From positions 1 to 24,968 of the IMG/VR virus record IMGVR_UViG_3300009466_000155: a stretch of DNA of 24,968 nt; one strand, given 5' to 3'. The DNA is from a virus. The position numbers and the translations under genes are program-made. The notes beneath the pieces are model-generated. The model did no database searches, was not told the DNA's origin, and was given only the letters and a program-made list of their open reading frames with translations. Positions 5,942 through 24,748 of the stretch are shown piece after piece (within the stretch, counting starts at the first letter, position 1; every line of letters starts with the position of its first letter).

Positions 5942-7716
5942 TGTTTGATGATTTCATATCTGCCCTGGAAGAAGACGAGTTTGAAGAACACCCAGTAAAT
6001 ATTGAAGAGTTTGTTACAAATGAAGACTACCTACATCTTCCACCTCTTTCAGAATATCAATATCAGGCTATCAAGGCTATGACACAAATCTATAAAAAAG
6101 ACACACTCATAAAACTTTATGGTGAAGAAGAAGGCACAAAGAGATTCAAGCAAACCTGTAATGAGGTTATACTGCAACTGGGAAAGGGTAGCGGTAAGGA
6201 TTATCTATCTACAATTTCAGTAACGTATCTTGTTTACCTATTGCTGTGCTTGAAAGACCCTGCAAAATATTTTGGAAAACCCCCAGGAGATTCAATTGAC
6301 ATTATCAATATTGCTATTAACTCCGAACAGGCAAAGAACGTATTCTTTAAAGGTTTTCGCAAAAGAATTGAAGATTCTCCATGGTTTGTCGGTAAATATG
6401 CTATTACAGCGCAAAGCGTATCGTTCGATAAATCCATTACATGCCACTCTGGTCACTCAGAACGGGAATCATGGGAAGGGTATAACGTTATCTGTGTAAT
6501 TCTGGATGAGATCTCTGGCTTTAGCACAGTATCGACAAGCGGTAACGAGCAGGCCAAGACAGGTCAGGCGATCTATGATATGTATAGGGCCTCAGTAGAT
6601 TCACGCTTCCCAGACGTTGGGAAGGTTGTCCTTCTTTCATTCCCTAGATACCGTGACGACTTTATTCAGCAGAGGTACAACGCTGTCATTGCTGATAAAG
6701 ATGTAGAGATAAAGTCTCACAAATTTAAATTAGATGATGAACTGGAAAATGTTGCAGAAAATGAGTTCACAGTTGAGTGGGAAGAAGATCATATTAACGC
6801 CTACAAATATCCAAAAGTATTTGCCCTTCGTAGGCCAACGTGGGAGGTCAATCCAACGAGATCAATAAATGATTTTAAGATTGCATTCTACAACAATCCG
6901 GTAGATGCCCTTGGTAGATTTGCCTGTATGCCTCCAGATGCAGTAGATGCTTTCTTCAAATCTAAGGAAAAAATTCTCACATGCTTTAATCAGCCTATGA
7001 ACGGTGTGGACGATGACGGCAGGTTTAGAGATTGGTTTAGACCCCAGGAAAGCAAAGAGTATTATATCCACGTTGACTTGGCACAAAAGCACGACCATTG
7101 TGCTGTAGCAATGGCTCATGTTGATAGATGGGTTCATCTAAAAAGTTTTATGAATCATAGTGTGGTCAGCCCTATCGTTGTCGTGGATTGTGTGAGATGG
7201 TGGACCCCGACCTCCGACAAATCTGTTGATTTCTCAGAAGTTAAACAGTTTATTGTGGACCTAAGATCACGGGGATTTAACATTAAAAAGGTTACATTCG
7301 ATAGGTGGAATTCACACGATATCATGTCAGAACTTAGAATGATTGGCATAGAAACAGAGACTCTTTCTGTAGCAAAGAAGCATTATGATGACATGGCTAT
7401 GCTGGTCGGAGAAGAAAGAATTGTTGGACCCAGCATTAAACTTCTTACAGATGAGTTACTTCAACTTAGAATTATCCGTGACAAAGTGGACCATCCAAGA
7501 AAAGGTAGTAAAGATCTCTCAGACGCGGTTTGTGGTGCCATTTATAATTCTATTGCCTATACCAGAAGAGAAGATGAAGAAATAGAAATTGAAGTACACA
7601 CATTTAAACAATTAATTAGAGATCGTGAAAAAGAAGAGGCAGATAGAAATATTATTAAACCGCCAATTCCACCAGAAAGTTTTGATGATTATGTTAATTC
7701 TATAGGGATGGTATAA
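5941..7716 (+). CDS. terL: Terminase large subunit
   Basis: This 591-residue protein is the packaging motor with ATPase and nuclease domains. ATPase: Walker A GKGSGKD at 81-87, Walker B VICVILDE at 183-190, coupling motif LLSFPRY at 231-237. Nuclease (RNase H-like): D379 in YYIHVDLAQKHDHCAVAM, D454 in VTFDRWNS, and the C-terminal acidic motif KDLSDAV at 524-530. The length is normal for a full two-domain large terminase. It begins one base after the small subunit's last coding base and ends just before a hypothetical gene rather than a portal gene, so the packaging genes are separated from the structural genes in this genome. Confidence 0.92.
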   Translation: MFDDFISALEEDEFEEHPVNIEEFVTNEDYLHLPPLSEYQYQAIKAMTQIYKKDTLIKLYGEEEGTKRFKQTCNEVILQLGKGSGKDYLSTISVTYLVYLLLCLKDPAKYFGKPPGDSIDIINIAINSEQAKNVFFKGFRKRIEDSPWFVGKYAITAQSVSFDKSITCHSGHSERESWEGYNVICVILDEISGFSTVSTSGNEQAKTGQAIYDMYRASVDSRFPDVGKVVLLSFPRYRDDFIQQRYNAVIADKDVEIKSHKFKLDDELENVAENEFTVEWEEDHINAYKYPKVFALRRPTWEVNPTRSINDFKIAFYNNPVDALGRFACMPPDAVDAFFKSKEKILTCFNQPMNGVDDDGRFRDWFRPQESKEYYIHVDLAQKHDHCAVAMAHVDRWVHLKSFMNHSVVSPIVVVDCVRWWTPTSDKSVDFSEVKQFIVDLRSRGFNIKKVTFDRWNSHDIMSELRMIGIETETLSVAKKHYDDMAMLVGEERIVGPSIKLLTDELLQLRIIRDKVDHPRKGSKDLSDAVCGAIYNSIAYTRREDEEIEIEVHTFKQLIRDREKEEADRNIIKPPIPPESFDDYVNSIGMV

Positions 7717-9767: not shown

Positions 9768-10166
9768 ATGAAAAATATTATTATTGCTGCTGCTATTTCT
9801 GCAGTTGCTCTAGTTGGATGCACATCTGAGGTGTCCCCGGCCCCGACAGTAACCATTACTGAGCAGGCCCCCGCTCCACTCCCAGCGCCAAGTGTTGATG
9901 ATGGGGTGACAACTAACTCTCAAAAGTTTGTAGGTTTTGTAAGACAAAATGGTGGTGTCTATGGAAGTATTGCTAATGAATCAGACCTTCTTGGTTTGGG
10001 AGATACTATTTGTAAGGGTTTCGCAGGAGGTCTTTCAGAAGATGAGATTACTCAGGTACTATCCCAGGCTTTAATTAATAGCAATATGGGCAATGATGAT
10101 GGCGCTAAGTTTGGCGCAGCACTCATTGTAGGCGCAAGAACCTATCTCTGTGTAGTAACTTACTAA
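9768..10166 (+). CDS. DUF732-like lipoprotein
   Basis: This 132-residue protein has an N-terminal lipoprotein signal: positively charged start, hydrophobic core and lipobox LVGC with C18 as the lipid anchor. A proline- and alanine-rich linker (about 24-45) follows, then a helical domain (about 52-132) with two cysteines, C82 and C128, a layout like the actinobacterial DUF732 domain (Ile/Leu-rich start, ...GxxICxGxxxGLSxDE..., final YLC). It should sit on the outer face of the host cytoplasmic membrane. In temperate phages such surface lipoproteins can block superinfection; that role here is inference. P2 lies upstream, with AAGGA before the ATG. Confidence 0.72.
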   Translation: MKNIIIAAAISAVALVGCTSEVSPAPTVTITEQAPAPLPAPSVDDGVTTNSQKFVGFVRQNGGVYGSIANESDLLGLGDTICKGFAGGLSEDEITQVLSQALINSNMGNDDGAKFGAALIVGARTYLCVVTY

Positions 10167-11359: not shown

Positions 11360-12517
11360 ATGAGAATAGGTTTTCTTTCTACAGACTGGGGCGATCACTT
11401 TCAGGCGCAGCCAGGTGGTTGTACTAACGTCAGAATGCTTGGTCCAGGTATGCAATTAACCACCATAGGTCATGAAGTTATGGTTGGAGAGATTGGCTGG
11501 AAGGACGGAGAAGGCTTTGTGGCAGTTCAGCCAGTAGAAAGAGTTAAGGTTCGTGATCGTAGCGTTATCACAAAATATTCTAAGGCTTTTGAAAAACTTG
11601 ATGTTGTTGTACTTAAACTATTTATGCATAAGGATGCGCCAAGATATATAGAAGAAGCCAAGAGGCTAGGTCAGACAGTCATTATTGACACGGATGACCA
11701 CTTTGAGCAACTTCCAGAAGATAATCTAGCATTCATAACAACTGACCCACAGACTCATCCAGAAAATAATAGAGAGCATCTTATAGCGACCTATCCTTTA
11801 GCAGATGGAATCATTGCTAGCACCAAGTTCCTTGAGGATAGAATGCGTAGGTATAATAAAAATGTATACAGAGTCTCTAATTCTTTAGACCCATCCAACT
11901 TTATGTACAGAATAGATACTGCTGGAACCAAGCCAACCATTGGATGGGTTGGGATTATGATGTGGCGAGTTAATGACCTAAAGGATGTTGCTGCACCAAT
12001 TAAGACTGTTATAGAAACTCACGGACTTAAATTTCATCATAGTGGAATAATGTTAGATAAGCCATTATGGGCGGCAGAAACCATTGGAATAGATCCTAAG
12101 AAAATGAGTGGCTATTGTGGAGCGAGGCCGCAGTATTACGGTAACATATTTATGCCCATAGATGTAGGTATCGTTCCTCTGACGAAGAATCAATTTAACG
12201 AGGCCAAGAGCAACCTAAAGGGTCTTGAGTATGCTTTGTCTGGAATCCCTTTTGTGGCTTCTAATACTAGAGAGTATAGAGATTTAGCAGATATGGGTGT
12301 TGGTAGAATTGCAAAATCTTCAAAGGATTGGATTAAGCATCTAACAAAACTTACAGATCCAGATGTAAGAGAAGAAGAGAGGCAGAACAATTATAAGATT
12401 GTAACTCAAAACTTCAACCTAAACTGGACAAAGTATAAATGGTCAGAAGCAATAGAACTTATCCATCTAGAAGCACAAAAAAATATAATGAAACAGTATC
12501 AACTAATTAAGGTATAA
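11360..12517 (+). CDS. GT4-like glycosyltransferase
   Basis: This 385-residue protein has the two-domain GT-B pattern of family 4. The N-terminal domain begins MRIGFLSTDW with GGCTNVRMLGP; IIDTDDHFEQLP (108-119) is a feature of many phage GT4-like enzymes. The C-terminal domain begins with PTIGWVG (192-198) and contains IVPLTKNQFNEAKSNLK (271-287) and LEYALSGIPFVAS, the donor-binding region. The enzyme moves a sugar from a nucleotide donor to an unknown acceptor. It lies alone, about 2.4 kb before the glycan operon, and its start has GGAG five bases upstream. Its target may be a phage structural protein or host surface glycan. Confidence 0.75.
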   Translation: MRIGFLSTDWGDHFQAQPGGCTNVRMLGPGMQLTTIGHEVMVGEIGWKDGEGFVAVQPVERVKVRDRSVITKYSKAFEKLDVVVLKLFMHKDAPRYIEEAKRLGQTVIIDTDDHFEQLPEDNLAFITTDPQTHPENNREHLIATYPLADGIIASTKFLEDRMRRYNKNVYRVSNSLDPSNFMYRIDTAGTKPTIGWVGIMMWRVNDLKDVAAPIKTVIETHGLKFHHSGIMLDKPLWAAETIGIDPKKMSGYCGARPQYYGNIFMPIDVGIVPLTKNQFNEAKSNLKGLEYALSGIPFVASNTREYRDLADMGVGRIAKSSKDWIKHLTKLTDPDVREEERQNNYKIVTQNFNLNWTKYKWSEAIELIHLEAQKNIMKQYQLIKV

Positions 12518-12545
12518 TTAATTATTACGCTTGGGAGGCTGCCAT

Positions 12546-13049
12546 ATGCCATATGACATTAGACAAAATTATCGTGGTAAGTCTGGATACTCTGTAGTTG
12601 GTCCAGACGGTACCGTTCGTGGCACTCATCGTACCCGTGGAGAGGCGGTGAGCCAACAAAGGGCTCTCTATTCCGCTGAATCAAACTCTAAGAAGGATAT
12701 TTCTAAGGCAGGGCATAACTTATACGAAGAACTATCTGCTGCTGAAAAAGAATTCCATGACTCCCTGGTAACAATTGCAGACAACTATGGGCCTTTAGAT
12801 GCAGAAGAAACTGGCATTTGGATAGGATATGAGTCTGCAGCAGAAAATGAAGATGCCTCTATTGGGGTTATGTGTGGAAACTGCTCCTTACACTATGAAA
12901 AAGAAGATGGTGGTCTAGGCTGTATGATCCTATCTTATGAAATTGAAGAGATGGGGAAATGTAGACTGGCAGTTATACCGCCAGGATATGTAAATTCAAG
13001 CCCGGTTATGAAAAATTTCTGGGGCGGTAAGTTCTCAAACAACAGATAG
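12546..13049 (+). CDS. Phage protein with capsid-protease-tail-like and HiPIP-like segments
   Basis: This 167-residue protein begins at ATG 12546, with GGGAGG seven bases upstream. Residues 13-37 (SGYSVVGPDGTVRGTHRTR then EAVSQQRALY) match a motif I recall from the C-terminal tails of prohead-protease polyproteins. The C-terminal part has CGNCSLHYEKEDGGLGC and GKCRLAVIPPGYV, with four cysteines and a spacing like small high-potential iron-sulphur or zinc proteins of phages. The middle is helical and acidic. The two segments suggest a head-assembly role, but both assignments are from memory of motif forms and remain tentative. Confidence 0.55.
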   Translation: MPYDIRQNYRGKSGYSVVGPDGTVRGTHRTRGEAVSQQRALYSAESNSKKDISKAGHNLYEELSAAEKEFHDSLVTIADNYGPLDAEETGIWIGYESAAENEDASIGVMCGNCSLHYEKEDGGLGCMILSYEIEEMGKCRLAVIPPGYVNSSPVMKNFWGGKFSNNR

Positions 13050-13053
13050 GTTA

Positions 13054-13425
13054 ATGATGAAAATTCTTGTTTACGGAAGCAATAAGTTTTCCGATTATGA
13101 TACTTTTACCCGTGCTGTGGTGGTGGCGATTGATAATGCCGTAGACAGCATAGATGACAAACTTGATATTTATACAGCAGGTCCGTACAAGGTAAATCAG
13201 TTTACTGCTGAGTTTGTTAATAAAACAGAGGGCTTCTTCAAGCAGAAAGGCATTAAGTCACGATTCTATCGGGTCTTAAAGAACGATGTTGTGGAAAACT
13301 TTGACAAGTACGGCATTGATAGTGTAGTATATTTATCAACGAAGAATGAACGTGCTGAGATTTTTGATACAGTAATATCTACGGCAGAAAGCCAGGACGT
13401 TCCCGTAAACATCTATAAGGTATAG
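13054..13425 (+). CDS. SLOG/DUF2493-like nucleotide-binding protein (tentative)
   Basis: This 123-residue protein begins KILVYGSNKFSDYDTFTRA, resembling the GxRxFxDY start of DUF2493 (YspA-like) proteins of the SLOG superfamily, which bind nucleotide-derived ligands. Later strands are visible (LDIYTAGPY, SRFYRV, SVVYLST), as expected of a Rossmann-like fold. The function in phages is unknown; ligand sensing in nucleotide metabolism is possible. Starts at 13054 or 13057 are equally likely. A TTGACA / TAGTAT pair at 13301-13330 inside the gene may be chance. Confidence 0.5.
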   Translation: MMKILVYGSNKFSDYDTFTRAVVVAIDNAVDSIDDKLDIYTAGPYKVNQFTAEFVNKTEGFFKQKGIKSRFYRVLKNDVVENFDKYGIDSVVYLSTKNERAEIFDTVISTAESQDVPVNIYKV

Positions 13426-13433
13426 GAGAGAAA

Positions 13434-13469
13434 ATGAGAATTATCAAAGGAGCAGGTCGCCGTATCTAA
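13434..13469 (+). CDS. Possible 11-residue leader peptide
   Basis: ATG 13434 follows GGAG at a good distance and opens a frame MRIIKGAGRRI that stops with TAA at 13467-13469. This falls exactly where the deaminase homology begins in another frame. It may be a true leader coupling translation to the deaminase, the displaced 5' end of that gene after a one-base change, or chance. No promoter is evident. Confidence 0.3.
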   Translation: MRIIKGAGRRI

Positions 13470-13503
13470 GCGCGACCAAGCATATCTTTCTGTAGCATCA
13501 TAT

Positions 13504-13818
13504 ATGGCATCTCAGTCTTCTTGTAGAATGAAGCACGGTTCTGTTATTGTAAAGGGTGGTAGAGTGATTTCTACTGGAGTTAACAAAGAAAGAAGTCATC
13601 CAAGAATTGTATCTAGTGAGCATATCAAGCAGCATTGTTCAGTTCATGCAGAAGTAGATGCAATCAAGAGGGCTAAGGATGTTAACGGGGCCACCATTTA
13701 TGTAGCAAGAGTGAACCGTCGTGGAGAGCAAAGAGATAGCAGGCCATGCAACAGATGCTATGAGGCAATAAAAAATAGTGGTATCAAGAAGATTGTCTAT
13801 ACAACGAGTGAGGAATAA
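13504..13818 (+). CDS. Cytidine/dCMP-deaminase-like protein
   Basis: From ATG 13504 the protein has 104 residues with the zinc site HAE (48-50) and PCNRC (C82, C85), and the N-terminal motif GSVIVKGGRVISTGVNK typical of dCMP/CMP deaminases. These convert dCMP to dUMP or deaminate related bases. The same frame is open upstream to 13438 and reads SKRDQAYLSVASYMA before residue 1, which is the normal first helix of this family; but that stretch has no ATG, GTG or TTG. GGAG at 13449-13452 would suit a start at GTA 13462. So the real N-terminus is uncertain, and the gene may use an unusual start or carry a small mutation. Confidence 0.78.
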   Translation: MASQSSCRMKHGSVIVKGGRVISTGVNKERSHPRIVSSEHIKQHCSVHAEVDAIKRAKDVNGATIYVARVNRRGEQRDSRPCNRCYEAIKNSGIKKIVYTTSEE

Positions 13819-14036
13819 TGTCTTTTAAAACAATTAACTACGAAGAGGCACATACAATTGTAGATTCTAATAAGAGTCTGTTTTGGGATGGATGGACAAT
13901 CGTAGACTGGAAGCCATACAAGGATGCTCTATATAAAAAGAATGGGCTCTTTCGGGATGGTAAGTGGGGTGTGTCTAGACGTTACACTCCAGATACAAAT
14001 GGATGGAAAGTGCCAGCAAAATATGTGGATCGATGA
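13818..14036 (+). CDS. Hypothetical tryptophan-rich protein
   Basis: This 72-residue basic protein starts at the ATG overlapping the deaminase stop. It has repeated aromatic patches (FWDGWTIVDWKPY, RDGKWGVSRRYTP, NGWKVPAKYVDR) with the look of a small beta-rich DNA- or protein-binding domain. Similar short proteins occur in actinophages near WhiB genes, as far as I recall. It overlaps the WhiB gene by 14 bases. No function assigned. Confidence 0.58.
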   Translation: MSFKTINYEEAHTIVDSNKSLFWDGWTIVDWKPYKDALYKKNGLFRDGKWGVSRRYTPDTNGWKVPAKYVDR

Positions 14037-14298
14037 GGCGCTATGCGCTGGCACAGATACCGAACTTTACTTTGATAAATACGAATCAAACCAGGACACA
14101 GCGGTAGAAATAGATAGAATGTGTTTATCGTGTCCAGTTATTAAAGAATGTTTTGATGAGGGTGTTAAGAGTGAGTCTTACGGAGTCTGGGGTGGCGTCT
14201 TCCTTAATGAAGGAAGATTAGATAATGTAAGAAACTCTCATAAAACAGATGTAGTTTGGCAAAGGATTCTCCCATTGATTTCGGAGGAAAAATGGTAG
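14023..14298 (+). CDS. whiB: WhiB-family iron-sulphur transcription factor
   Basis: This 91-residue protein has the four cysteines of WhiB proteins: C8 in DEALCAG, then C34, C37 and C43 in CLSCPVIKEC (C-x2-C-x5-C), followed by the GVWGG turn at 54-58. These bind a 4Fe-4S cluster and work with the host primary sigma factor. The family is restricted to Actinobacteria and their phages, so it is the best host marker here. ATG 14023 is chosen because the homology begins at once (MWIDEALC); longer starts would overlap more of the gene before. Phage WhiB proteins can silence host whiB genes and affect superinfection; the role here is inference. Confidence 0.88.
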   Translation: MWIDEALCAGTDTELYFDKYESNQDTAVEIDRMCLSCPVIKECFDEGVKSESYGVWGGVFLNEGRLDNVRNSHKTDVVWQRILPLISEEKW

Positions 14299-14537
14299 AT
14301 AAATTAGTTCTCAATGTTCTTAAAGATAATAAACCACCCTATAATATAGTCGTGGATATTGTGGAAACGCCTAATTATCTTGCTCTAAGAGTGTATGAGA
14401 ATGAGGTCATGTCTTTATCTAGCGATAAACAATTGATCGTAATGGAATACCTGCACAAACTACGAAATATCGTAATGACATTTGGAATTAAATGCCATTT
14501 CCAGGGTGTTCCAGGAGATCCACCTAGGAGAGTCTAA
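14292..14537 (+). CDS. Hypothetical small protein
   Basis: This 81-residue protein begins MVDKLVLNVLKDNKPPYNI at ATG 14292, with CGGAGG just upstream, and overlaps the WhiB stop. It is alpha/beta: an N-terminal strand, VDIVETPNYLALRVYEN, and a helix VMEYLHKLRNIVMTFGIKC. No motif recognised. The TAA overlaps the ATG of the next gene. Confidence 0.6.
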   Translation: MVDKLVLNVLKDNKPPYNIVVDIVETPNYLALRVYENEVMSLSSDKQLIVMEYLHKLRNIVMTFGIKCHFQGVPGDPPRRV

Positions 14538-14710
14538 TGGAAATGGTTTGGATTGAATCCGAACGATGCTGGGGTAAAGTTATGCAAAGAAATACTTCTT
14601 ATTGCATAGTAAAGTATTATAAAGACGGAATTAATTATGAAGAGGCGATAGAAATAGAAGATCTTGTAGATCTTAATGATATGGGTATAGATTATGAAGA
14701 GGACTCCTAA
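14537..14710 (+). CDS. Hypothetical acidic 57-residue protein
   Basis: The gene starts in a TAATG overlap and stops in another TAATG overlap, filling the space exactly. It begins MEMVWIESERCWGKVMQ and ends in a strongly acidic tail (EDLVDLNDMGIDYEEDS). No known family. The coupling on both sides is the main support. Confidence 0.55.
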   Translation: MEMVWIESERCWGKVMQRNTSYCIVKYYKDGINYEEAIEIEDLVDLNDMGIDYEEDS

Positions 14711-14892
14711 TGTTTAAAAGAAAAAGCGCGGTGGAGATAAAGCAGCCACAAGAGTATTACTGCTCTAATCCAGACTGCCGTAATGAGGTAGCAGACTTTA
14801 GCCCCCTAAAAAATCTGCTTACCGACGAAGCCCATAATAATTATTCAGACTTCTATTGCATGGACTGTATAATTGAGGAGAATTTTCTATGA
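14710..14892 (+). CDS. Small zinc-binding protein
   Basis: This 60-residue protein has [11 protein letters not shown] and [11 protein letters not shown], two cysteine pairs (C-x4-C and C-x2-C) that likely bind zinc. It lies directly before the glycan operon, overlapping gmd by four bases (ATGA), and may be read through into it. Function unknown. Confidence 0.58.
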
Positions 14893-15896
14893 AGAAGGCT
14901 TTAATTACAGGGATTACTGGTCAGGACGGGTCCTACCTAGTAGAGTTACTTTTGGATAAAGGCTATCTAGTTTATGGAATAAAGAGGAGATCCTCATCTC
15001 TGAATACAGAAAGAATAGATCATCTATTTAATCACCCAAATCTAGAATTAGTCTACGGTGACCTGACAGACTCTTCATCAATTATAAAGATTGTTAACGA
15101 TACCAGGCCCGATGAAATTTATAACCTTGGCGCTCAAAGCCATGTTCAGGTGTCATTTGAAACTCCTGAATATACTGCACAGTCAGACGCGGTGGGTCCG
15201 TTAAGAATTCTTGAAGCAATTAGAACATTAGGATTACAGTATGATACAAGATTTTATCAGGCAGCAACATCAGAAATGTACGGCCTTGTCCAAGAAGTTC
15301 CGCAGACTGAAACGACGCCGTTCTATCCTAGATCTCCTTATGGAGTAGCAAAACTTTATGGTTATTGGATTACAAAGAATTACCGTGAGGCATACAATAT
15401 GTATGCATGTAGTGGAATATTATTCAATCACGAATCACCTCGCCGTGGTGAAACCTTTGTAACTAGAAAGATTACAAGAGGTCTGGCGGCTATTAAAAGA
15501 GGAGAACTTGAAACTCTAGAACTTGGTAATCTAAATGCTTTAAGAGACTGGGGGCACGCAAAGGATTTTGTCAATGCTATGTGGCTAATGTTGAACCAGG
15601 ACGACCCAGAAGATTATGTCATTGCAACGGGAGAAGAGCATACTGTTAAGGAATTCATTGAGGCAAGCGCACCGTTTTTTGACATGGAAATAGAATGGCG
15701 GGACGAGGGCGTTGATGAAATAGGTGTAGACGTTAAAACTGGAAAAACTATTATTGCTGTGAATGATAAATACTTTAGGCCAGCAGAAGTAGATAGATTA
15801 ATTGGAGACTCTTCTAAGGCTAGAAAAGAATTGGGGTGGAAGCAAGAATACACCTTCTACGATCTAGTAAGGGAGATGTGTCTTGCAGAATTATGA
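14889..15896 (+). CDS. gmd: GDP-mannose 4,6-dehydratase
   Basis: This 335-residue short-chain dehydratase converts GDP-D-mannose to GDP-4-keto-6-deoxy-D-mannose, the branch point for fucose, rhamnose, perosamine and colitose. It has the NADP site GITGQDGSY (8-16), the TSEMYG motif with E129 and T127, and Y151xxxK155 ([12 protein letters not shown]). Family marks include [29 protein letters not shown] and [14 protein letters not shown], all near-identical to bacterial Gmd. The length is full. It opens the operon; no ManB/ManC or GDP-mannose synthesis gene is present, so host GDP-mannose is presumably used. Confidence 0.95.
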
Positions 15897-16665
15897 TGTT
15901 ACTATCAAAGCCCACCCAAAGGATTATTACAAACTTCCATATGTTATATCCAGCCTTAAGCATTTAAAGCCCAGATTTGAGAACATTTATATTGTTTCTC
16001 CAGACGGGCACAGACCAGACTCTATCTTTCAAGATTACATCATTACTGTAAAGGATGATGAGGTCAGGCCATTTATAGATAAAACTAAATTTAAGCATAG
16101 GTACAACTGGTCTTGGGTTAACATGCTGTCTTTGACACAAGAATTTACAAAAAATGATTTGTACTTTGATGTTCAGGCAGACAACTTTTTCCTTAATGAT
16201 TTAGAATTGTTTACAGAGGATGGTAGGCCAAGACTATTCAAAACTCGCGCTAATTCTAATAACAATACTGTCTGGCCTGGGTATTTTGAATTTAGTAAGA
16301 ACATGTTTAACATAGAAAAAATAACCTTTGGATCTTCCTACATTATTGAATTCATGATGTATGATAAAAATAAACTGAAGAGTCTATATGAACCATATGA
16401 TAAAGGCATCATGATAGAAAAATCTTATAAAGAAATTAATGAAAACTCGTACCCCGCAGATCAGGAAATTTATGGAAATCTTATAGAAGGAAGATTTCCA
16501 GAATCATATGAAATAGTAGGCCCTATTGAAACTCACATCGGCGGAGATGATTTACAAGATGATGATATAGATAGAGTTTTGGACTATGTATCATCAATAA
16601 AAACGAAATATCCTGCAGCAATAGCCTGCAGCCATCACACATATTGGATGCCAGAATGGAACTAG
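15883..16665 (+). CDS. DUF6492-like putative glycosyltransferase
   Basis: This 260-residue protein begins with TTG 15883, as no ATG fits the homology start; GGGAG lies seven bases upstream and the gene overlaps gmd by 14 bases. It opens [21 protein letters not shown] and continues with [14 protein letters not shown], a GT-A-like start, then [12 protein letters not shown] (a metal-binding acidic motif of the DxD type, here QAD). Family resemblance is to DUF6492 proteins of polysaccharide loci. It likely adds one sugar in the glycan made by the operon. The assignment is moderate. Confidence 0.6.
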
Positions 16666-17597
16666 ATAGTAGAATTTATGTAGCAGGGCACAGAGGTTTA
16701 GTTGGCTCTGCCATAGTAAGAAAATTAAAAGATCTTGGATATACAAAAATCATTGTAGATCGCCATGAAGATTTAGATTTAAGGCATCAACAATGGACTC
16801 GCAACTTTATATCGTTGCATGAGCCAGATTATGTTTTTTTGGCAGCAGCAAAAGTAGGCGGGATTAATTATAATAAGAGTCATCCTGCAGATTTTATCTA
16901 TGACAATCTATCTATTCAGAATAACGTTATTAATTCTTCATATAAACTGGGCGTAAAGAAACTTTTATTCCTGGGATCTTCATGCATCTATCCTAAAGTA
17001 TGCGATCAGCCAATTAAAGAATCAGCACTTTTGACTTCACCATTAGAACCAACTAATGAAGCATATGCAATTGCAAAAATTGCTGGTTTAAAAATGTGCC
17101 AGATGTTTACAAGTCAGTACGGATTTGAAACCGTATCTGCCATGCCAGCGAATCTATATGGTCCAAACGATAACTTTAACTCTGAACAATCTCACGTTAT
17201 TCCTGCAATGATAAAGAAATTTATGGATGCTATTTGGCACGGTAAGAAGGAAGTTATTTTCTTTGGTGACGGTTCTCCTATAAGAGACTTCATGTACGTT
17301 GATGATTTGGCAGACGCATGTGTATTCCTGATGAACAACTATGATGATCCAAATCATATAAATGTAGGATCTGGATTAGATGTATCAATTAAATATTTGG
17401 CTCAAGTAATCTCTTCTATTATTGGATACGAGGGTGAAATATTATGGGACGATACTAAGCCTAATGGATCTCCAAGAAGAACTCTTGACACATCTAGGAT
17501 GGGTGCGCTAGGATGGTATCCAAAGACCTCTTTAATACAGGGGTTAGAAAAAACCATTAAGTGGTACAGAGAAACTGGTGGACAGCGTGAATTATAA
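16656..17597 (+). CDS. GDP-L-fucose synthase-like epimerase/reductase
   Basis: This 313-residue protein has the fucose synthase signature: GHRGLVGSA (11-19), SSCIYP (108-113), Y137xxxK141 in NEAYAIAKIAG, and MPANLYGPNDNF. The enzyme epimerises C3 and C5 and reduces C4 of GDP-4-keto-6-deoxymannose to give GDP-L-fucose; related ColC does the same on the 3-deoxy substrate to give GDP-L-colitose. Which applies cannot be decided from the sequence. ATG 16656 overlaps the previous stop; a TTG 12 bases earlier is possible. The family fit is strong, the substrate is not. Confidence 0.88.
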   Translation: MELDSRIYVAGHRGLVGSAIVRKLKDLGYTKIIVDRHEDLDLRHQQWTRNFISLHEPDYVFLAAAKVGGINYNKSHPADFIYDNLSIQNNVINSSYKLGVKKLLFLGSSCIYPKVCDQPIKESALLTSPLEPTNEAYAIAKIAGLKMCQMFTSQYGFETVSAMPANLYGPNDNFNSEQSHVIPAMIKKFMDAIWHGKKEVIFFGDGSPIRDFMYVDDLADACVFLMNNYDDPNHINVGSGLDVSIKYLAQVISSIIGYEGEILWDDTKPNGSPRRTLDTSRMGALGWYPKTSLIQGLEKTIKWYRETGGQREL

Positions 17598-18753
17598 ATG
17601 GCCTTTAATGAAAGAAACTATAACTTTGGGTGACAGACTTGAGATGATTAAGTTTGTTGCAACGACAGGAAAATTTACTAACGGAGATAAGGTAAAGAAG
17701 TTTGAGTCTGAGTGGAATGAATGGCTTGGATCTCAGCACTCTTTGTTTGTTTCATCTGGCTCTACTGCAAACTTTTTATTGCTGGCGGCAGTAAAAGAAT
17801 ATCTGGGCCTTAAGGACGGTGATAAAGTTTTAGTGCCAGCCTGTACCTGGATGACTAATGTTGCTCCGATTATACAGTTAGGCCTTCAGCCAGTATTCTG
17901 TGATATTAATATGTTTAATTATTCATTTAATAAGCAACATCTAGAAACACTATCTATTCTTCATAAAGATATAAAGGTGATCTTTGTTACGCATCTTCTT
18001 GGGTTCCCCTCATGGGAGGTCGAATACTTTAAAGAGTATTTTCCAAACGCAATCATCTTAGATGATGTTTGTGAGTCTCATGGAGTTAGTCGAAGCGGTG
18101 AAAGGGTTGGGTCAAATAGTGTTGGTGCCACCTTTAGTTTTTACTTTGGTCACCATATGACAACAATTGAAGGCGGCATGGTGTCTACTAGAAATGAAGA
18201 CCTTTATGATCTAATGAAGATGAAACGTAGTCATGGCATGTCAAGAGAGTCGATTCATGCAAATGAATATGCCATCAAGTATCCAAAGATGGACCCATCA
18301 TTTCTTTTTATCACAGACGGTTATAACTTTAGAAATCATGAAATACCCGCTGTTCTTGGGTCTAGCCAACTCAAAAGGCTTGACGGCATGATAAAGAAAC
18401 GCAAAGAAAACTACAGGCTATTTCTTAAATTAATCAGAAAGCATGAAGACAAGTTCTATATTCCTTATGATCGTGGTGGAGATAGCAACTTTGCCTTTCC
18501 AATAGTATCTAAGCGTGAACTTACGCATAGCATTCTTAAGTCTAAACTTCATAATGCTGGGATCGAAAAGCGTCCAATTGTAAGCGGTAATCTTTTAGAG
18601 CATCCATTCCTTAAGCAATATAAAATGGCTCAGGCTGGCCCAGAAACGCCACAGGTAAAGATCGTACATGAAAGAGGACTCTATGTAGGTAATAATCATT
18701 TCGTAGGAGAAAAAGAAATATCTATGCTAGAGGAGATCTTTGACGAACTATGA
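17587..18753 (+). CDS. DegT/AHBA-fold 3-dehydratase, ColD-like (catalytic Lys replaced by His)
   Basis: This 388-residue PLP-dependent protein has the aminotransferase fold: SSGSTANFLL near residue 56-65, PACTWMTN, DD at 159-160 (LDDVCESHG) for the pyridine nitrogen, and the active site at SFYFGHHMTTIEGGMV. In normal DegT aminotransferases a lysine stands where H189 is; here HH replaces it. This is the mark of ColD and of E1/RfbH-type 3-dehydratases, which remove the C3 hydroxyl with a His base. ColD acts on GDP-4-keto-6-deoxymannose, the product of the Gmd upstream, and is also about 388 residues long. I take GTG 17587; GTG 17578 is another option. Confidence 0.78.
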   Translation: MNYKWPLMKETITLGDRLEMIKFVATTGKFTNGDKVKKFESEWNEWLGSQHSLFVSSGSTANFLLLAAVKEYLGLKDGDKVLVPACTWMTNVAPIIQLGLQPVFCDINMFNYSFNKQHLETLSILHKDIKVIFVTHLLGFPSWEVEYFKEYFPNAIILDDVCESHGVSRSGERVGSNSVGATFSFYFGHHMTTIEGGMVSTRNEDLYDLMKMKRSHGMSRESIHANEYAIKYPKMDPSFLFITDGYNFRNHEIPAVLGSSQLKRLDGMIKKRKENYRLFLKLIRKHEDKFYIPYDRGGDSNFAFPIVSKRELTHSILKSKLHNAGIEKRPIVSGNLLEHPFLKQYKMAQAGPETPQVKIVHERGLYVGNNHFVGEKEISMLEEIFDEL

Positions 18754-19502
18754 GTAAAGATCCAAGAGAGTATGAAGATTTTCTATATAAGTTAAGGCCT
18801 AAGTGGAACTTCTATCTAAATGAAGAAATACTACAATGTAATACTCCATCCGAAAATAACATAGGATACCTAATTGAGTCTAAAACTATTATTGAGGGGG
18901 TGTATGTAGACTTCATATTAAACTGGGAAAGAGTTATAGATAACTTTAAGTATATCTTTGTTCAGGACAGCAGTCTGCTCAAATACCATCCAAAGATTAA
19001 ATGGGCTCCAGCATCATTTATATGGATAGATGAACCACAAATCTATCCTAAGACAAAACTAATATCAATGATATCTTCTAAGAAGAATATGTGTCCAGAG
19101 CATACCAGACGATTGGCTATGGTGGATAGAATGTCATCTGTCGGCGGCGTGGATATTTATGGTCAGGGGTTAAGATACATAGAGAAAAAGGAGCAGGGTC
19201 TTTGCGACTACATGTTCTCAATAGCCATGGAGAATGCCAGGTACCCTGGAAACTTTACTGAAAAGATAATGGATTGTTTTGCTACTGGAACAATTCCAAT
19301 TTATTCTGGAGATCCAACTATAGATAGATTCTTCAATCCTGATGGCATTATAACTCTGAGTGATGACTTTCACCCATCCCAAGTAAATGAGGACTTGTAC
19401 TATGAGAAAATGGACGCCATAAAAGAAAACTTAGAAATAGTAAAACAATTCTCCAGCATACAAGACTGGATACATGAAAAATACCTTAAGGAATTAGAAT
19501 GA
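18750..19502 (+). CDS. GT10 fucosyltransferase-like protein
   Basis: This 250-residue protein has the C-terminal donor-binding signature of family 10 (alpha-1,3/1,4-fucosyltransferases): YMFSIAMENARYPGNFTEK (154-172), then ATGTIPIYSGDP (178-189) and RFFNPDGII. GDP-fucose or a related GDP-deoxy sugar is the usual donor. The N-terminal acceptor half is short and divergent. It starts in an ATGA overlap and ends in another with the FkbM gene. Donor choice between fucose and a dideoxy sugar cannot be read. Confidence 0.82.
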   Translation: MSKDPREYEDFLYKLRPKWNFYLNEEILQCNTPSENNIGYLIESKTIIEGVYVDFILNWERVIDNFKYIFVQDSSLLKYHPKIKWAPASFIWIDEPQIYPKTKLISMISSKKNMCPEHTRRLAMVDRMSSVGGVDIYGQGLRYIEKKEQGLCDYMFSIAMENARYPGNFTEKIMDCFATGTIPIYSGDPTIDRFFNPDGIITLSDDFHPSQVNEDLYYEKMDAIKENLEIVKQFSSIQDWIHEKYLKELE

Positions 19503-20134
19503 ACCCCTTAAAATGCGTAGTAGATGCCTACAATAAATATTTTGGAGAGCAAGCCAAGACTATTTTAGAAATAGGTTCCAGAGATGGGCACGACGCCTAT
19601 TACCTTTATCTTAAACTAAAGGCTCATAAAGCCTACACGTTTGAGGCGAACCCTAATTGTTACAAAGTAATTAATTTAAATTACCCAGAGTTTCATAATA
19701 TCTATGGTGCAGTATCTAACTTTACTGGTCAGTCCACATTCAACATGGTTGAGTCATCTGACTGGGATGCGGTTGGCACCTCCTCATTAAAGGATCGTAA
19801 TGATTCCTGGTACGACGGCAGAGCAATCAAGATTACAGTAGATGTAGATACTATGCATAACTATATTATTAATTACGATATCCAACCCCCTTTTGATGTA
19901 GTAAAACTTGATGTTGAGGGATGTTCATACGAAGTTCTTGAAGGATTTGGTTCTTTTATCAAAGACGTAAGGGTTTTGCATGTTGAAAATGAAACTATAC
20001 AATACTGGTCGGACCAAAAACTTGCAAACGATGTAGCAGAACTGCTATTATCTAAGGGCTTCTTCTTAGAGTATTCCGAAAACTTTGGAACTAATAGCGT
20101 TGATGAGGTTTGGGTAAATGGCAATTTCGTTTAA
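19499..20134 (+). CDS. FkbM-family SAM-dependent methyltransferase
   Basis: This 211-residue protein has the FkbM layout: SAM site TILEIGSRDGHDAYYL (21-36), FEANPNCYKV (48-57), the catalytic-region DVVKLDVEGCSYEVLEGF (133-150) and a final HVENE. FkbM enzymes methylate hydroxyl groups of sugars or polyketides. In this operon it likely caps or decorates the glycan, which often stops chain growth. It overlaps the GT11 gene by 17 bases. The acceptor is unknown. Confidence 0.8.
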   Translation: MNPLKCVVDAYNKYFGEQAKTILEIGSRDGHDAYYLYLKLKAHKAYTFEANPNCYKVINLNYPEFHNIYGAVSNFTGQSTFNMVESSDWDAVGTSSLKDRNDSWYDGRAIKITVDVDTMHNYIINYDIQPPFDVVKLDVEGCSYEVLEGFGSFIKDVRVLHVENETIQYWSDQKLANDVAELLLSKGFFLEYSENFGTNSVDEVWVNGNFV

Positions 20135-20885
20135 TAGTCTCGGTGGCTATGGCAGAATGGGGAACCAAATGTTCCAGTATGCTGCCCTTAGAGGAATAGC
20201 ACATGAGCATGGATATGAATTTTCTATTCCAGGATCGGGGCATAGATTATTTGAAGTATTTACAATGGATAACTGCACCATTAGAGAAGAAAATAAGATA
20301 ACTATGCAGAATCTGACTCACATAGGATTTGAATTCGATAAAGCCCTGTTTGATAACTGCCCAAACTATACAGATCTTTATGGATATTTTCAAAGTGAGA
20401 GGTACTTTGAGGCTATTGCAGAATCTATCCGACAAGACTTTACATTCAATAATCCAGATATAACTCTAATTAAAGCATTAAGAGATGAAGCGGACGGCAA
20501 ACCAATAGTAAGCGTACATGTACGCAGAGGAGACTATATTACATTGCAAGACTACCACCCGCTACTGACCAAAGAATACTATGAATCATCTATGTCAGTC
20601 TTTAAAGACGTTTTATTCGCAGTATTTTCAGATGATCCAGAGTGGTGTGAGTATCAAGAAATGTTCCATGACTGCATGGTAATCGATGCTTCAGATAAAA
20701 CTACAATGTATACCATGTCCCAATGTGATCATAATATAATTGCTAATTCATCATTTAGTTGGTGGGGTGCGTGGCTCAATAATAATTACCATAAGGTAGT
20801 TATCGCTCCTAAAAAATGGTTTGGACCAGCGTACTCAGACTACGACTTATCTGATTTGTATCCAAGTAGGTGGATAGTTCTATGA
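20118..20885 (+). CDS. GT11 alpha-1,2-fucosyltransferase-like protein
   Basis: This 255-residue protein has all GT11 motifs: GRMGNQMFQYAAL (12-24), VSVHVRRGDY (131-140), and IIANSSFSWWGAWL (207-220). Family members use GDP-L-fucose; the E. coli O55 colitosyltransferase belongs to the same family. The full-length single domain predicts a soluble or peripheral GT-B enzyme. The stop overlaps the next gene (ATGA). Together with the GT10 enzyme, it fits the Gmd/fucose-synthase route in this operon. Confidence 0.9.
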   Translation: MAISFNSLGGYGRMGNQMFQYAALRGIAHEHGYEFSIPGSGHRLFEVFTMDNCTIREENKITMQNLTHIGFEFDKALFDNCPNYTDLYGYFQSERYFEAIAESIRQDFTFNNPDITLIKALRDEADGKPIVSVHVRRGDYITLQDYHPLLTKEYYESSMSVFKDVLFAVFSDDPEWCEYQEMFHDCMVIDASDKTTMYTMSQCDHNIIANSSFSWWGAWLNNNYHKVVIAPKKWFGPAYSDYDLSDLYPSRWIVL

Positions 20886-21487
20886 GTTTCTATGATCACT
20901 TTGACGCCGCCTTCTGCATTAATTTAGATAAAAGAGAAGATAAATGGGATGCATCTCAAAAGCAATTTGAAAAGATTAATTTAGAAGTAGAAAGAGTATC
21001 TGCAGTAGACGGATTTCTTGAGCCGCCTGCAAGCATCCGGCCCGGTGAGGTAGGGTGCCTAAAGTCTCACCTAAAAGTATTTGAGATAGCAAAAGAAAGA
21101 GGGCTAAAATCATTCCTTATGCTAGAGGATGATGTTCACTTTGCAGACCCGTTTCATGAAAGATTTAACATAATAGAGCCACAAACACCGGCTTACGAAA
21201 TGCTTTATTTTGGATCTAACCCTCATAGTGGAGAAAGATTTGAGGTCGCCCCGAATCTAAACAGAATTACATATACATTTGCGGCTCATTGTGTGATATT
21301 TAAAGAGTCCTGCTTTGACGATATTATAAATCAATTACGCGGACCAATGGTTCATGCTGTAGATGTTGTTTATGGTCACCAGCAAGTTGTGCATACAGCA
21401 TATTCTATAAAGCCATCCTTGGCGTGGCAGAGAAAAGAGTTCTCAGATATAAACCAGGAAATTGTTGACTACGAGTTTTTAAGATGA
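20882..21487 (+). CDS. GT25-family glycosyltransferase
   Basis: This 201-residue protein has the LPS-type GT25 pattern: FCINLDKRED (11-20), SAVDGF, GEVGCLKSH (55-63) and LMLEDDVHF (79-87). These are typically galactosyl- or glucosyltransferases acting on surface glycans. ATG 20882 is preferred to GTG 20870, as it forms an ATGA overlap and has an AGGTGG site. The C-terminus (TYTFAAHCVIF, VDVVYGHQQ) fits the family. Substrates unknown. Confidence 0.82.
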   Translation: MSFYDHFDAAFCINLDKREDKWDASQKQFEKINLEVERVSAVDGFLEPPASIRPGEVGCLKSHLKVFEIAKERGLKSFLMLEDDVHFADPFHERFNIIEPQTPAYEMLYFGSNPHSGERFEVAPNLNRITYTFAAHCVIFKESCFDDIINQLRGPMVHAVDVVYGHQQVVHTAYSIKPSLAWQRKEFSDINQEIVDYEFLR

Positions 21488-21498
21488 TAGGATAAGGT

Positions 21499-22110
21499 GT
21501 GCCTAAATTTACAATTATTGCTACAGATGCAGAAAATCATGTCCCCAGAGATAAAATGAAGCAGGGAATAGAATCACTAAACAAACAAACATTCAAGGAT
21601 TTTGAATTACTTATTATCCATGATGGACCAAGAAAAGGGTCATATGATAATGAGTTAGACGAACTTCCAGAGAATACGGGATTTATTGAAACCGATAAGC
21701 ATTATGGAATATATGGTCTTGATGAATTCTGGGCTGGATATGGATGGGGTCATCACTCTAGAGATCTTGGAATAAAACAGGCGAGCGGAGACTACATTAT
21801 CCACTTCAACATTGATAATATACTGTTTCCAGATGCTCTACAGAAAATTTCTGAAACAATAGATGAAACGAATTCTGACGTTGTAATCTTTGCATGTAAG
21901 CATGAAAAATTTGGTGTAAATTATTTCTCAGGCGTTCCTCCCGTCATGGGTAAAATCGATTTGCTACAATGTGTTGTTAGCAAGGAGGCGTGGGAGTCGA
22001 TTGGCGGCTGGCATAGATATGATCACTCTGCCGATGGCTTCCTATTTGAAGAAATAATTGCAAAATATGGATATGTTCACATACCAGAAGTTCTAGGAGA
22101 AAATAGATAA
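21499..22110 (+). CDS. GT2-like glycosyltransferase
   Basis: This 203-residue protein starts at GTG 21499 and has a GT-A fold: MPKFTIIATD, KQGIESLNKQTFKDFELLII, then GDYIIHFNIDN (97-107). The metal-binding DxD motif is altered to NID, which some GT2-like enzymes tolerate, so activity is not certain. Its HHSRDLGIKQASGDY segment matches the family. It lies in line with the other GT genes and its stop overlaps the next ATG. Confidence 0.72.
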   Translation: MPKFTIIATDAENHVPRDKMKQGIESLNKQTFKDFELLIIHDGPRKGSYDNELDELPENTGFIETDKHYGIYGLDEFWAGYGWGHHSRDLGIKQASGDYIIHFNIDNILFPDALQKISETIDETNSDVVIFACKHEKFGVNYFSGVPPVMGKIDLLQCVVSKEAWESIGGWHRYDHSADGFLFEEIIAKYGYVHIPEVLGENR

Positions 22111-22901
22111 TGCCAGTTTATGAGGATATTCGTGTAGCGTTAGAATATCAAAATGAAAACGCAGACAAGGATTTGATACCAGACGACGTTCCTATTATTA
22201 TTCCAACCTTTAACACTCCGTCGTATCTGAAGTCTATGATTGATCAACTTGAGAAAAGAGGTTGGACAAATGTTATCATTTGTGATAATAACTCTACCTA
22301 TCCACCAATGATAGATTTGTTAGAAGAACTATCCCAGAAGTATCATGTAGTGCGATGGTCAGATAATCATGGGCCACGTTACTATACAGAAAATAAAGAT
22401 ATCTGCTCAAGGATGCCAAAATATTTTATTGTGACCGACCCCGATCTATTGCTTAATGATAATATGCCTCGTAATGCTATAAACAAGATGAAAAGAATTG
22501 TTGATATGTATGGGGTATCTAAAGTAGGTCTTGCAATAGACATTCATTCAGCAGAAGAAAGAGATAGATTCTTTAGTCCTAGGCAGGTGGACGATTGGGA
22601 GGGGCATTACTGGAATGTAAAGGTCGATAAATATCCAGAAAAGGATGATCTTTATGCTGCTCCCGTAGATACAACCTTTGCTCTCTATAATAGAGATAGA
22701 TTTCTTGCGGAGATTGATAATGTCCCCATGCAGATGACTTGTAATACTAGCGCCATTAGAATTGCTGGAAGATTTACTTGCAAGCATATGGGCTGGTGGG
22801 ATAAACTTCCATTAGAGCAAGAAGAATATGATTACTACCAAAAGACGATAACAAACTGGTCGTCTACAGAAACAGAAAAGAAGAAGTTAGGATATCAATG
22901 A
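22110..22901 (+). CDS. GT2-like glycosyltransferase
   Basis: This 263-residue protein has the GT-A fold: VPIIIPTFNTPSYLKSMID (27-45), NVIICDNNSTYPPM and VTDPDLLL, with D110-x-D112 as the metal-binding motif. A long C-terminal region with CKHMGWWDKLP may recognise the acceptor. The catalytic layout is more regular than in the GT2-like protein before it. It ends in an ATGA overlap with the RmlB-like gene. Confidence 0.75.
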   Translation: MPVYEDIRVALEYQNENADKDLIPDDVPIIIPTFNTPSYLKSMIDQLEKRGWTNVIICDNNSTYPPMIDLLEELSQKYHVVRWSDNHGPRYYTENKDICSRMPKYFIVTDPDLLLNDNMPRNAINKMKRIVDMYGVSKVGLAIDIHSAEERDRFFSPRQVDDWEGHYWNVKVDKYPEKDDLYAAPVDTTFALYNRDRFLAEIDNVPMQMTCNTSAIRIAGRFTCKHMGWWDKLPLEQEEYDYYQKTITNWSSTETEKKKLGYQ

Positions 22902-23908
22902 CAACCGTACTTTTGACTGGGGCCAGCGGGTTTGTTGGCAGCCATGTATTACGACATATTCTTTCCAATACTGATTGGAATGTAGTATGCCTAGTGTCTT
23001 TTAGACACCGTGGAATCACAGATAGAATCCGTCTGGCGGTGGAAGGCTATGATGATGACTTCAAGCGTACAAAGGTAATTAAGCATGACCTTACAGCACC
23101 GTTCTCTCCTGTTCTTACCTATGAGATTGGTGAGATTGACTACGTTATCAACGTTGCTAGTGAATCCCATGTTGATCGCTCTATTGAAGAGCCCGTACCC
23201 TTTATTGAGAATAATGTTTCATTAGTTTGTAATATTCTAGAGTGGGCAAGATTCTCAAATATTAAAAAGTTTATTCATGTTTCTACCGATGAGGTATATG
23301 GTCCCGCACCACATGGTCATGCACATCGTGAATGGCAAGATCAGTATTTCCCAAGTAATCCATACTCTGCATCTAAGGCTGCTCAGGAGTCCATCGCGTA
23401 CTCTTACTGGAGGACATATGGAGTGCCACTTATTATCACTAATACAATGAATATTATTGGCGAAATGCAGGACCCAGAGAAGTTTATTCCGATGACCATC
23501 AAGAAAGTTTTGGCTGGAGAAACAATGACTATTCATGCTTCTCCTACAGGAGAAATTGGAAGTAGGTATTATCTTCATGCTAGAAACCAGGCAGATGCTT
23601 TACTTCATGCACTCACTCAGGATACTCCCGCATATGGCGATTCTCAGGCCCCACAGAAATTCCATGTGGTAGGTGAGAGAGAGGTTGATAATTTAGAGAT
23701 GGCACAGATGGTTGCTGCCTATGTTGGCAAGCCATTAAAGTATGAACTAGTAGACTTCCACTCATCTAGGCCAGGACATGACTTGCGTTATGCTCTAGAT
23801 GGTGATAAAATTGCGAGCACGGGGTGGAAGGCTCCCCTTTCACTTGAAGAATCACTAGAGAGAACGGTAAAATGGACTCTGGATCGCCCAGAGTGGCTAA
23901 GACTATGA
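22898..23908 (+). CDS. RmlB-like NAD-dependent sugar dehydratase/epimerase
   Basis: This 336-residue extended-SDR enzyme has GASGFVGSH (8-16), VASESHVDRSIEEP near 86-99, STDEVYGP (129-136) and Y156xxxK160 in NPYSASKA. The T130-D131-E132 triad and ESHVDRSI are hallmarks of NDP-glucose 4,6-dehydratases such as RmlB. Its product would be an NDP-4-keto-6-deoxyglucose, or it may act on another nucleotide sugar. No RmlA, RmlC or RmlD is here. It closes the operon. Confidence 0.8.
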   Translation: MTTVLLTGASGFVGSHVLRHILSNTDWNVVCLVSFRHRGITDRIRLAVEGYDDDFKRTKVIKHDLTAPFSPVLTYEIGEIDYVINVASESHVDRSIEEPVPFIENNVSLVCNILEWARFSNIKKFIHVSTDEVYGPAPHGHAHREWQDQYFPSNPYSASKAAQESIAYSYWRTYGVPLIITNTMNIIGEMQDPEKFIPMTIKKVLAGETMTIHASPTGEIGSRYYLHARNQADALLHALTQDTPAYGDSQAPQKFHVVGEREVDNLEMAQMVAAYVGKPLKYELVDFHSSRPGHDLRYALDGDKIASTGWKAPLSLEESLERTVKWTLDRPEWLRL

Positions 23909-24006
23909 ATATAGATTATTATTACGAAGAAGAAGAAGAATTAGATGAAGAAATAGTTCATCTAATGAAAAAGAAGCGACAAGTTCAGAACAAAAGATCC
24001 TATTAA
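23905..24006 (+). CDS. Hypothetical 33-residue charged peptide
   Basis: The gene reads MNIDYYYEEEEELDEEIVH then a lysine/arginine-rich tail (KKKRQVQNKRSY). It starts in an ATGA overlap with the dehydratase stop. The acidic head and basic tail recall small unstructured phage peptides. No family recognised. Confidence 0.45.
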   Translation: MNIDYYYEEEEELDEEIVHLMKKKRQVQNKRSY

Positions 24007-24017
24007 CATGGAGTAAG

Positions 24018-24551
24018 ATGACCTGCATCTCAGCAATCGCTCATAACGGTAAAGTGTATATGGGTGGAGATTCTGCTGCCGTAGATGAGGGAAGTGACCT
24101 TGTATCTACCAGGAAAGAGCCAAAGGTATTTATTAGAAATAATTATCTAATTGGTTTTGCTGGAAGTTTTAGGTTTGGTAAAGTTGTAGAACACATCTTT
24201 AACCCTCCAAAATTACAGACTGACAATATTGATAAGTTTTTAAATACAGTATTTGTAGATGCTCTCAGAGATACTTGCGATCTATCTAAAATAGACCCCC
24301 CATCAGAGGATGACTCATCAGAACTTTTGATCGGTGTCAATGGAAGACTCTTTGAATTCTGTAATGATTGGCATTTCGGAGAAGATGTAAATGATTTTAA
24401 TGCCATTGGTTCGGGTACAAAATTAGCACTAGGCTCTTTGTATTCTACTAGACGAATGCAGTCTCAAAGTGCTAGAATTAAACTATCACTACAGGCGGCA
24501 GAGAAATTCTCCCCGTCTGTACGAGGTCCATTTACTATATTGGAGATCTAA
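24018..24551 (+). CDS. Proteasome/HslV-like Ntn-hydrolase
   Basis: This 177-residue protein begins MTCISAIAHNGKVYMGGDSA, the start of proteasome-beta and HslV-type hydrolases. After removal of Met, Thr1 would be the nucleophile; D17 and a lysine at about 32-35 (RKEPKVF) complete the usual catalytic set. The middle (NNYLIGFAGSFRFG) and the GSGTKLALGSLYST region match the fold. Cellular forms are protease rings; in phages the substrate is unknown and an ATPase partner is not visible here. GGAG lies just upstream of the ATG. Confidence 0.78.
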   Translation: MTCISAIAHNGKVYMGGDSAAVDEGSDLVSTRKEPKVFIRNNYLIGFAGSFRFGKVVEHIFNPPKLQTDNIDKFLNTVFVDALRDTCDLSKIDPPSEDDSSELLIGVNGRLFEFCNDWHFGEDVNDFNAIGSGTKLALGSLYSTRRMQSQSARIKLSLQAAEKFSPSVRGPFTILEI

Positions 24552-24748
24552 TGCTTGATGCTAGAGGTATTCCTACTCCTGAGTGCCCTAACTGTGGCTC
24601 ATGGCTATTGAAGATTAATGCTACTTTCGATGAAGATTATAAAATAGCGTCATATTTGCTTGACGGTGAGTGTGCTATGTGTAGTACACTTCTTACTGTA
24701 CCAACAGAAATCGATCACCCAGAATACGACCCACAGGAGTTGCTATGA
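24551..24748 (+). CDS. Zinc ribbon protein
   Basis: This 65-residue protein has ECPNCGSWLLK and GECAMCSTLLTV, two C-x2-C pairs in a standard zinc ribbon. It starts in a TAATG overlap with the Ntn-hydrolase and its stop overlaps the next small gene. Acidic tail (DHPEYDPQELL). Function unknown. Confidence 0.65.
   Translation: MLDARGIPTPECPNCGSWLLKINATFDEDYKIASYLLDGECAMCSTLLTVPTEIDHPEYDPQELL

Follow-up and report, generated by a model that had tools for sequence, protein, structure and literature searches.

A predicted proteasome-like Ntn hydrolase in a clade of actinobacterial phages

The window analysed here, i.e. the whole stretch of 24,968 bases from an IMG/VR virus record, encodes a protein which, by alignment and structural model, is a proteasome-like Ntn hydrolase with Thr1, Asp17, Lys33 and Gly47 predicted on a beta-sandwich core. 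Proteins of this kind are already known in phages (PHROG 1040; PMC8665760, available text), and the best fitting group is the AAH group of Fuchs, Alva and Lupas 2021. With moderate confidence we read the gene as an actinophage accessory gene for an AAH-type group I threonine hydrolase that would act as an ATPase-independent, self-assembling peptidase on host or defence proteins.

Table 1. Positions of the hydrolase gene, its coding features and other genes in the window
Feature	Position	Strand	Basis or remark
Proteasome-like Ntn hydrolase gene, AAH-type as best fit	24018..24551	+	ORF of 177 aa; PHROG, tblastn and fold matches
Shine-Dalgarno GGAG	24010..24013	+	directly read, closely 5' of the ATG
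Thr codon, residue 2 (Thr1 of the mature protein), predicted nucleophile	24021..24023	+	alignment
Asp codon, residue 18 (Asp17 equivalent)	24069..24071	+	alignment
Lys codon, residue 36 (Lys33 equivalent)	24123..24125	+	alignment
Gly codon, residue 46 (oxyanion-hole Gly47 equivalent)	24153..24155	+	alignment
Pore-loop region (residues 85-103) following helix H2; net charge -6	24270..24326	+	alignment; helix limits from model
33-aa acidic ORF, 5' neighbour of the hydrolase	23905..24006	+	kept also in relatives without the hydrolase
65-aa zinc-ribbon-like protein with two CxxC	24551..24748	+	start and hydrolase stop overlap
NAD-dependent sugar dehydratase/epimerase, bordering the variable slot on the left	22898..23908	+	PF16363, E 1.9e-44
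WhiB-like regulator, actinobacterial host marker	13924..14298	+	PF02467, 50.4 bits vs cut-off 23.6
Large terminase	5941-7716		16 kb from the hydrolase gene

Family, fold and active site

The protein starts with MTCISAIAHNGKVYMGGDSA, and no RNA structure was seen at the start site of its gene (z +1.58). The original prediction of a proteasome/HslV-like hydrolase in a phage is borne out by searches and by fold. PHROG 1040 ("peptidase HslV family"), a name that indicates remote homology only, matches the full length (residues 1-177, E 8.3e-19), and tblastn finds an annotated phage protein with this same family name at E 3e-31. The match to Pfam PF00227 stays below threshold (E 0.11, 12.5 bits vs 22.4). 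At E<=0.01, 163 of 50,697 annotated phage records match, the best being Moorella phage MTATph1 (39% identity); members are common among Salmonella, Escherichia and Vibrio phages, and none of the annotated phage records matches the window at the DNA level. IMG/VR yielded 403 relatives through one peptide pattern derived from isolate phages and 46 through a pattern of the window clade, 16 of them at >=68% identity and three (L144, L134, L116) at 45-56%.

The AlphaFold2 model (pLDDT 94.6, pTM 0.90) was built from a 75-row alignment of the window protein and IMG/VR rows, filtered for ATG and Thr2. Foldseek placed the Thiobacillus BPH first (E 1.4e-12) and HslV next. In VIA-align the two are tied, less than 1 Z apart: Z 21.0 for BPH (5ovs_A, rmsd 2.0 over 163 residues) and 20.8 for HslV (3ty6_C). 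Model residue 2 meets chain residue 1 in the BPH superposition. The predicted helices (51-59, 71-89, 134-143, 150-164) and last strand (173-176) make a compact group I subunit with H1-H4, without insertions, S12/H5 or propeptide.

Other members of the superfamily were considered and rejected: HslV itself (TIGR03692, 14.8 bits vs a cut-off of 157.75); the 20S beta subunit (TIGR03690, PrcB, 19.2 bits vs 191.9, and separate branching from PrcB); Anbu, since the model ends in a strand and lacks the C-terminal helix (H5 coiled coil); and PPH, a protein of about 140 residues in which H2 is missing, against the 19-residue helix 71-89 here. Five BPH candidates starting with MTYC (L258, L259 and L282-L284) we take to be Anbu. 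With AAH (Fuchs 2021) the window protein has in common the group I fold, the catalytic set, the lack of propeptide and H5, and occurrence in phages; it differs in branching beside the clade of all 80 bacterial members and in its acidic pore loop. BPH (5ovs, 5ovt, 5ovu) also has a long acidic pore loop and lacks unfoldase and propeptide, but the window protein is only about 18-20% identical to it. HslV (ClpQ) shares the fold, the active site and the Thr directly after Met; the window protein differs from it by its long pore loop, the lack of a detected HslU-type partner and scores far below the family cut-offs.

The pore-loop region comprises the last part of helix 71-89 together with the loop that follows. 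Its mean charge is -5.4 (-5.36) in 11 rows of the window clade, -2.7 in six L003-type rows, -1.7 in 17 isolate-phage rows and -0.9 in the 80 bacterial rows, and the HslV references align just four residues over it. In the BPH structures the pore loop is elongated and very acidic and an unfoldase is absent; the linker of HslV is, by contrast, short (PMC5777263, available text). The long acidic loop predicted here, from sequence and model, resembles that of BPH.

The catalytic residues are kept. Among 21 phage proteins Thr2 is found in 20 (Ser in one), Asp18 and Lys36 in all 21 and Gly46 in 20. The nucleophile position, at which a substitution seen on alignment would have counted against the hydrolase reading in the original prediction, is Thr in 127 and Ser in 1 of the 128 distinct relatives with a visible start, out of 130 distinct complete relatives; of the remaining two, one matches only from query residue 9 and the other is cut by a contig end. 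Thr2 is also present in 11/11 proteins of the window clade; its invariance in the 75-row alignment is by choice of rows. The claims that D17 and a lysine are preserved hold as well, and the lysine, whose place had not been named, falls in the same column as the Lys of HslV and 20S beta. In a joint alignment of 80 bacterial relatives with HslV and PrcB references, Asp18 and Lys36 occupy the Asp and Lys columns of these references in every row, including 80/80 bacterial relatives. Gly46 is present in 11/11 rows of the window clade and in 76/80 bacterial rows, the other four being gaps. The serine of the GSG motif (residue 132) is Ser in 11/11 window-clade rows and Cys in 65/80 bacterial ones.

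Selection on the hydrolase is purifying: dN/dS lies between 0.05 and 0.15 in nine pairs, several with dS near saturation, and the tenth pair is identical. Examples are the window against L001 (0.053; dS 1.3, near saturation) and L103 against L105 (0.072; dS 0.14).

Two features of other members were observed in passing. In MTATph1 (L006, CDS0188) the deposited start at 6043 lies 14 codons inside the homologous frame and drops the catalytic Thr, which a TTG start at 6001 would keep (6001-6042); this start is probably mis-annotated. Members from Pseudoalteromonas and Vibrio phages (L013 3001-4167, L019 3001-3867) carry C-terminal extensions of about 100-200 residues past the hydrolase domain.

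Phylogenetic position and host

The tree comprised 156 rows: the window, phage relatives, 80 bacterial rows, HslV, PrcB and Anbu, without BPH; treekit flagged long branches, and also four rhizobial rows that cover less than half of the columns. The window falls in a 12-row group (92/98, not starred), which is nested together with L003-type phages in a 19-row group (96/73). The 80 bacterial rows without exception fall in a different set (118 rows, 98/87; 106 rows, 99/96), surrounded by phage rows, and the window clade lies outside this set. HslV, PrcB and Anbu are outside, the branch that unites the window and bacterial AAH against HslV and PrcB being weak (93/23). The best 80 of 203 genome loci came from 54 Pseudomonadota (Alphaproteobacteria in nearly every case, judging by title), 19 Actinomycetota, five Bacillota and two others. 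The nearest cellular relatives therefore lie in Alphaproteobacteria and Actinobacteria, as expected of AAH. The pattern for this bacterial scan was derived from isolate phages and cannot match the GFAGSFR version of the window; the scan may therefore have overlooked bacterial proteins of the window subtype.

WhiB is described as exclusive to actinobacteria and their phages in the available text of PMC10611076. It scored above the PF02467 cut-off in 22/22 records first tested (19 of the window clade, two of L003 type and phage DSL-LC01); among 14 control genomes only Corynebacterium had it. Three of 31 other family records carry it (L120, L126, L158), and all three belong to the subclade that is sister to the window clade; none was found in L140 and L157, from the same part of the tree as this subclade, or in L135. 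As the window and all 22 records first tested have WhiB, an actinobacterial host, assumed in the original prediction, is well supported.

DSL-LC01, like the window a WhiB-bearing genome of actinophage type, encodes a group I homolog annotated "ATP-dependent protease subunit HslV" (OQ999401, WJZ48484.1), but its protein is 26% identical to that of the window and joins L014 on a different branch (97/89). WhiB-bearing phages therefore hold at least two lineages.

The premise that Actinobacteria have their own proteasomes stood only in part: 69 of 149 sampled actinobacterial genomes match the proteasome family (PF00227) and 80 do not, so that it fails as a general statement. The AAH type is rare in the phylum: run on 396 actinobacterial genomes, the family profile matched strongly just once, in the genome that served as centre, and the other, weak matches cover the N-terminal region only. 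The window clade also differs from AAH as surveyed in 2021 by sitting in actinophages; according to the available text of PMC8665760 no Actinobacteria-specific phage encoding AAH could be found. If AAH includes the window clade, this clade is AAH-type in actinophages and fills that gap. No paper on the clade was found in the literature searched.

Variable locus and genomic context

L289, L290 and L294 (56, 38 and 107 kb) share both flanking genes with the window, at 89-90% identity for the dehydratase and 68-75% for the zinc-ribbon gene. The slot between them holds the small acidic ORF and, where the window has the hydrolase, an ORF of about 43 aa. No hydrolase was found anywhere in these records or in L302, which are perhaps incomplete; in L291, L295, L297 and L301 it lies elsewhere in the record. 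Since close relatives lack it at the slot or in the whole record, the hydrolase appears to be accessory, dispensable in close relatives and variously sited. The ORF of about 43 aa (2366-2497 in L289, 2357-2497 in L294, and in L290) conserves ..PMFDW.NGDEINPWEWLWDDED..; its sequence in L289 is MKAWIPMFDWANGDEINPWEWLWDDED...

The zinc-ribbon gene, the one constant neighbour within the clade, follows the hydrolase in 18/20 of its loci. A dedicated partnership was nevertheless rejected: in the loci of zinc-ribbon relatives the hydrolase lies within the examined flank in 2/25, and a whole-record search of eight of the other 23 loci found it elsewhere in four and not in the other four. The zinc-ribbon gene is a general gene of this phage group.

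The context survey covered 121 representatives at 75% identity, from 237 loci, in which cuts at contig ends make the counts lower bounds. Head genes lie within 5 kb of the hydrolase in at least 31/76 IMG/VR, 0/16 isolate and at least 7/29 bacterial loci, and within 200 bases in at least 15, 0 and at least 1 of these, respectively. In isolates the neighbours are ribonucleotide reductase, thymidylate synthase or DHFR, and also PhoH-like genes, peptide deformylase and a ClpP-like gene. In the jumbo Escherichia phage 121Q (L022 2065-3597) a ClpP-like protease gene lies one gene from the proteasome-like gene. No fixed partner gene emerges across the loci examined, in agreement with the available text of PMC8665760, which reports no telling genomic context and limited clues to function for the new homologs.

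The original prediction saw no ATPase partner, and wider searches concur: AAA_2 (PF07724, HslU/ClpX type) matches 0/23 related records, which may be fragments, and 14/14 control genomes. PF00004 AAA is absent from the window and its six tested relatives; it matches 3/11 records (DSL-LC01, MTATph1 and phiR2-01).

The window also encodes a UvsX-like recombinase, a Cas4-like nuclease, a RuvC-like resolvase and tRNA-Gln. A run of sugar genes at 11360-23908 includes two GT2, GT10, GT11, GT25 and other glycosyltransferases, a DegT aminotransferase, epimerase/dehydratases and an FkbM methyltransferase, which suggests glycan synthesis for virion or host-surface modification. At 9768-10166 there is a weak match to DUF732 (PF05305, E 0.00095, 20 bits vs a cut-off of 22.4).

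Possible function and alternatives

The role that we prefer, and propose, is the degradation of host or defence factors. That the gene is accessory, swappable and under purifying selection suits action against variable host factors better than a part in virion building. To expose Thr1, methionine aminopeptidase alone would suffice, since Met followed by Thr is a permissive site, and the host enzyme would remove Met1 and free the Thr. The subunits would stack into a closed ring as in BPH and HslV, the acidic loop may gate or select substrates in place of an ATPase, and in the course of infection the ring would cleave host or anti-phage proteins that are unfolded or selected in some other way. 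The model retains H3 and H4 and has no insertion there; these helices mediate ring-ring contact in the proteasome (PMC8665760, available text). By analogy, the simplest reading of an acidic gate without ATPase would be a BPH-like, ATP-independent compartment for unfolded or specific polypeptides. An intact active site does not prove proteolysis, because BPH, which has these residues too, was inert when given peptides or casein (PMC5777263, available text).

We put forward as rather doubtful a more extended version, in which a distinct actinophage lineage would have evolved a BPH-like acidic gate and would use the ATPase-free ring protease as a swappable anti-host module; one phage group would exchange it at a fixed slot with the unrelated ORF of about 43 aa, which may serve the same end. 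The lineage makes a compact test object, with an intact catalytic site, a charged pore loop and a presence/absence contrast at one locus, and a host phylum partly without its own proteasome adds to this value. No functional study of any phage proteasome homolog was found in the literature searched.

Another reading is that the protein is not a protease at all. Chemistry differs among Ntn hydrolases. Connectase, which belongs to the same superfamily, acts as a monomeric ligase (PMC8665760, available text), and the inert BPH could be read in the same sense. A sequence-specific ligase, transpeptidase or amidase like connectase is nevertheless unlikely here: the ring proteases BPH and HslV come closest in fold, and the model has H1-H4 and no Hins1/Hins2 insertion, whereas connectase is without H1-H2 (PMC8665760, available text). 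A true HslV replacement, fed by a host AAA+ unfoldase (HslU, ClpX or Mpa), would agree with the HslV-like fold, and a host enzyme would be needed because no phage unfoldase was found in the related records searched. This we judge very unlikely, given a score far under the HslV cut-off and a long acidic pore loop where HslV has its short linker (PMC5777263, available text). As to the host 20S proteasome, hosts of the bacterial members (Dactylosporangium, Actinomadura, Streptomyces, Frankia) have PrcA/PrcB-type genes with which the protein might co-assemble, or which it might poison. But more than half of the sampled actinobacterial genomes are without PF00227, the tree sets the hydrolase apart from PrcB, and family members are frequent in phages infecting Salmonella, Escherichia and Vibrio, which are not known to be 20S hosts; this idea is hardly credible.

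Maturation of virion proteins, which the original prediction had also offered, would make the hydrolase a protease that processes heads or tails and is expressed late, together with the genes for the head. It draws on the IMG/VR representatives, in which a portal, TerL, S78 protease or capsid gene lies within 1 kb in 20/76 and within 200 bases in 15/76, and on the order TerL-hydrolase-portal-S78 protease in L082 and L058. Such proximity is seen neither in the 16 isolate-phage representatives nor in the window, many head-module loci have a separate S78 prohead protease, and the place of the hydrolase within the head module varies between loci. For this phage the proposal is not upheld, the gene being distant from the terminase and absent from the whole examined record in close relatives, and we hold it to be quite unlikely. 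Hydrolases within the head module were also observed in L130, L036 and L035, at varying places between TerL, portal and S78 protease.
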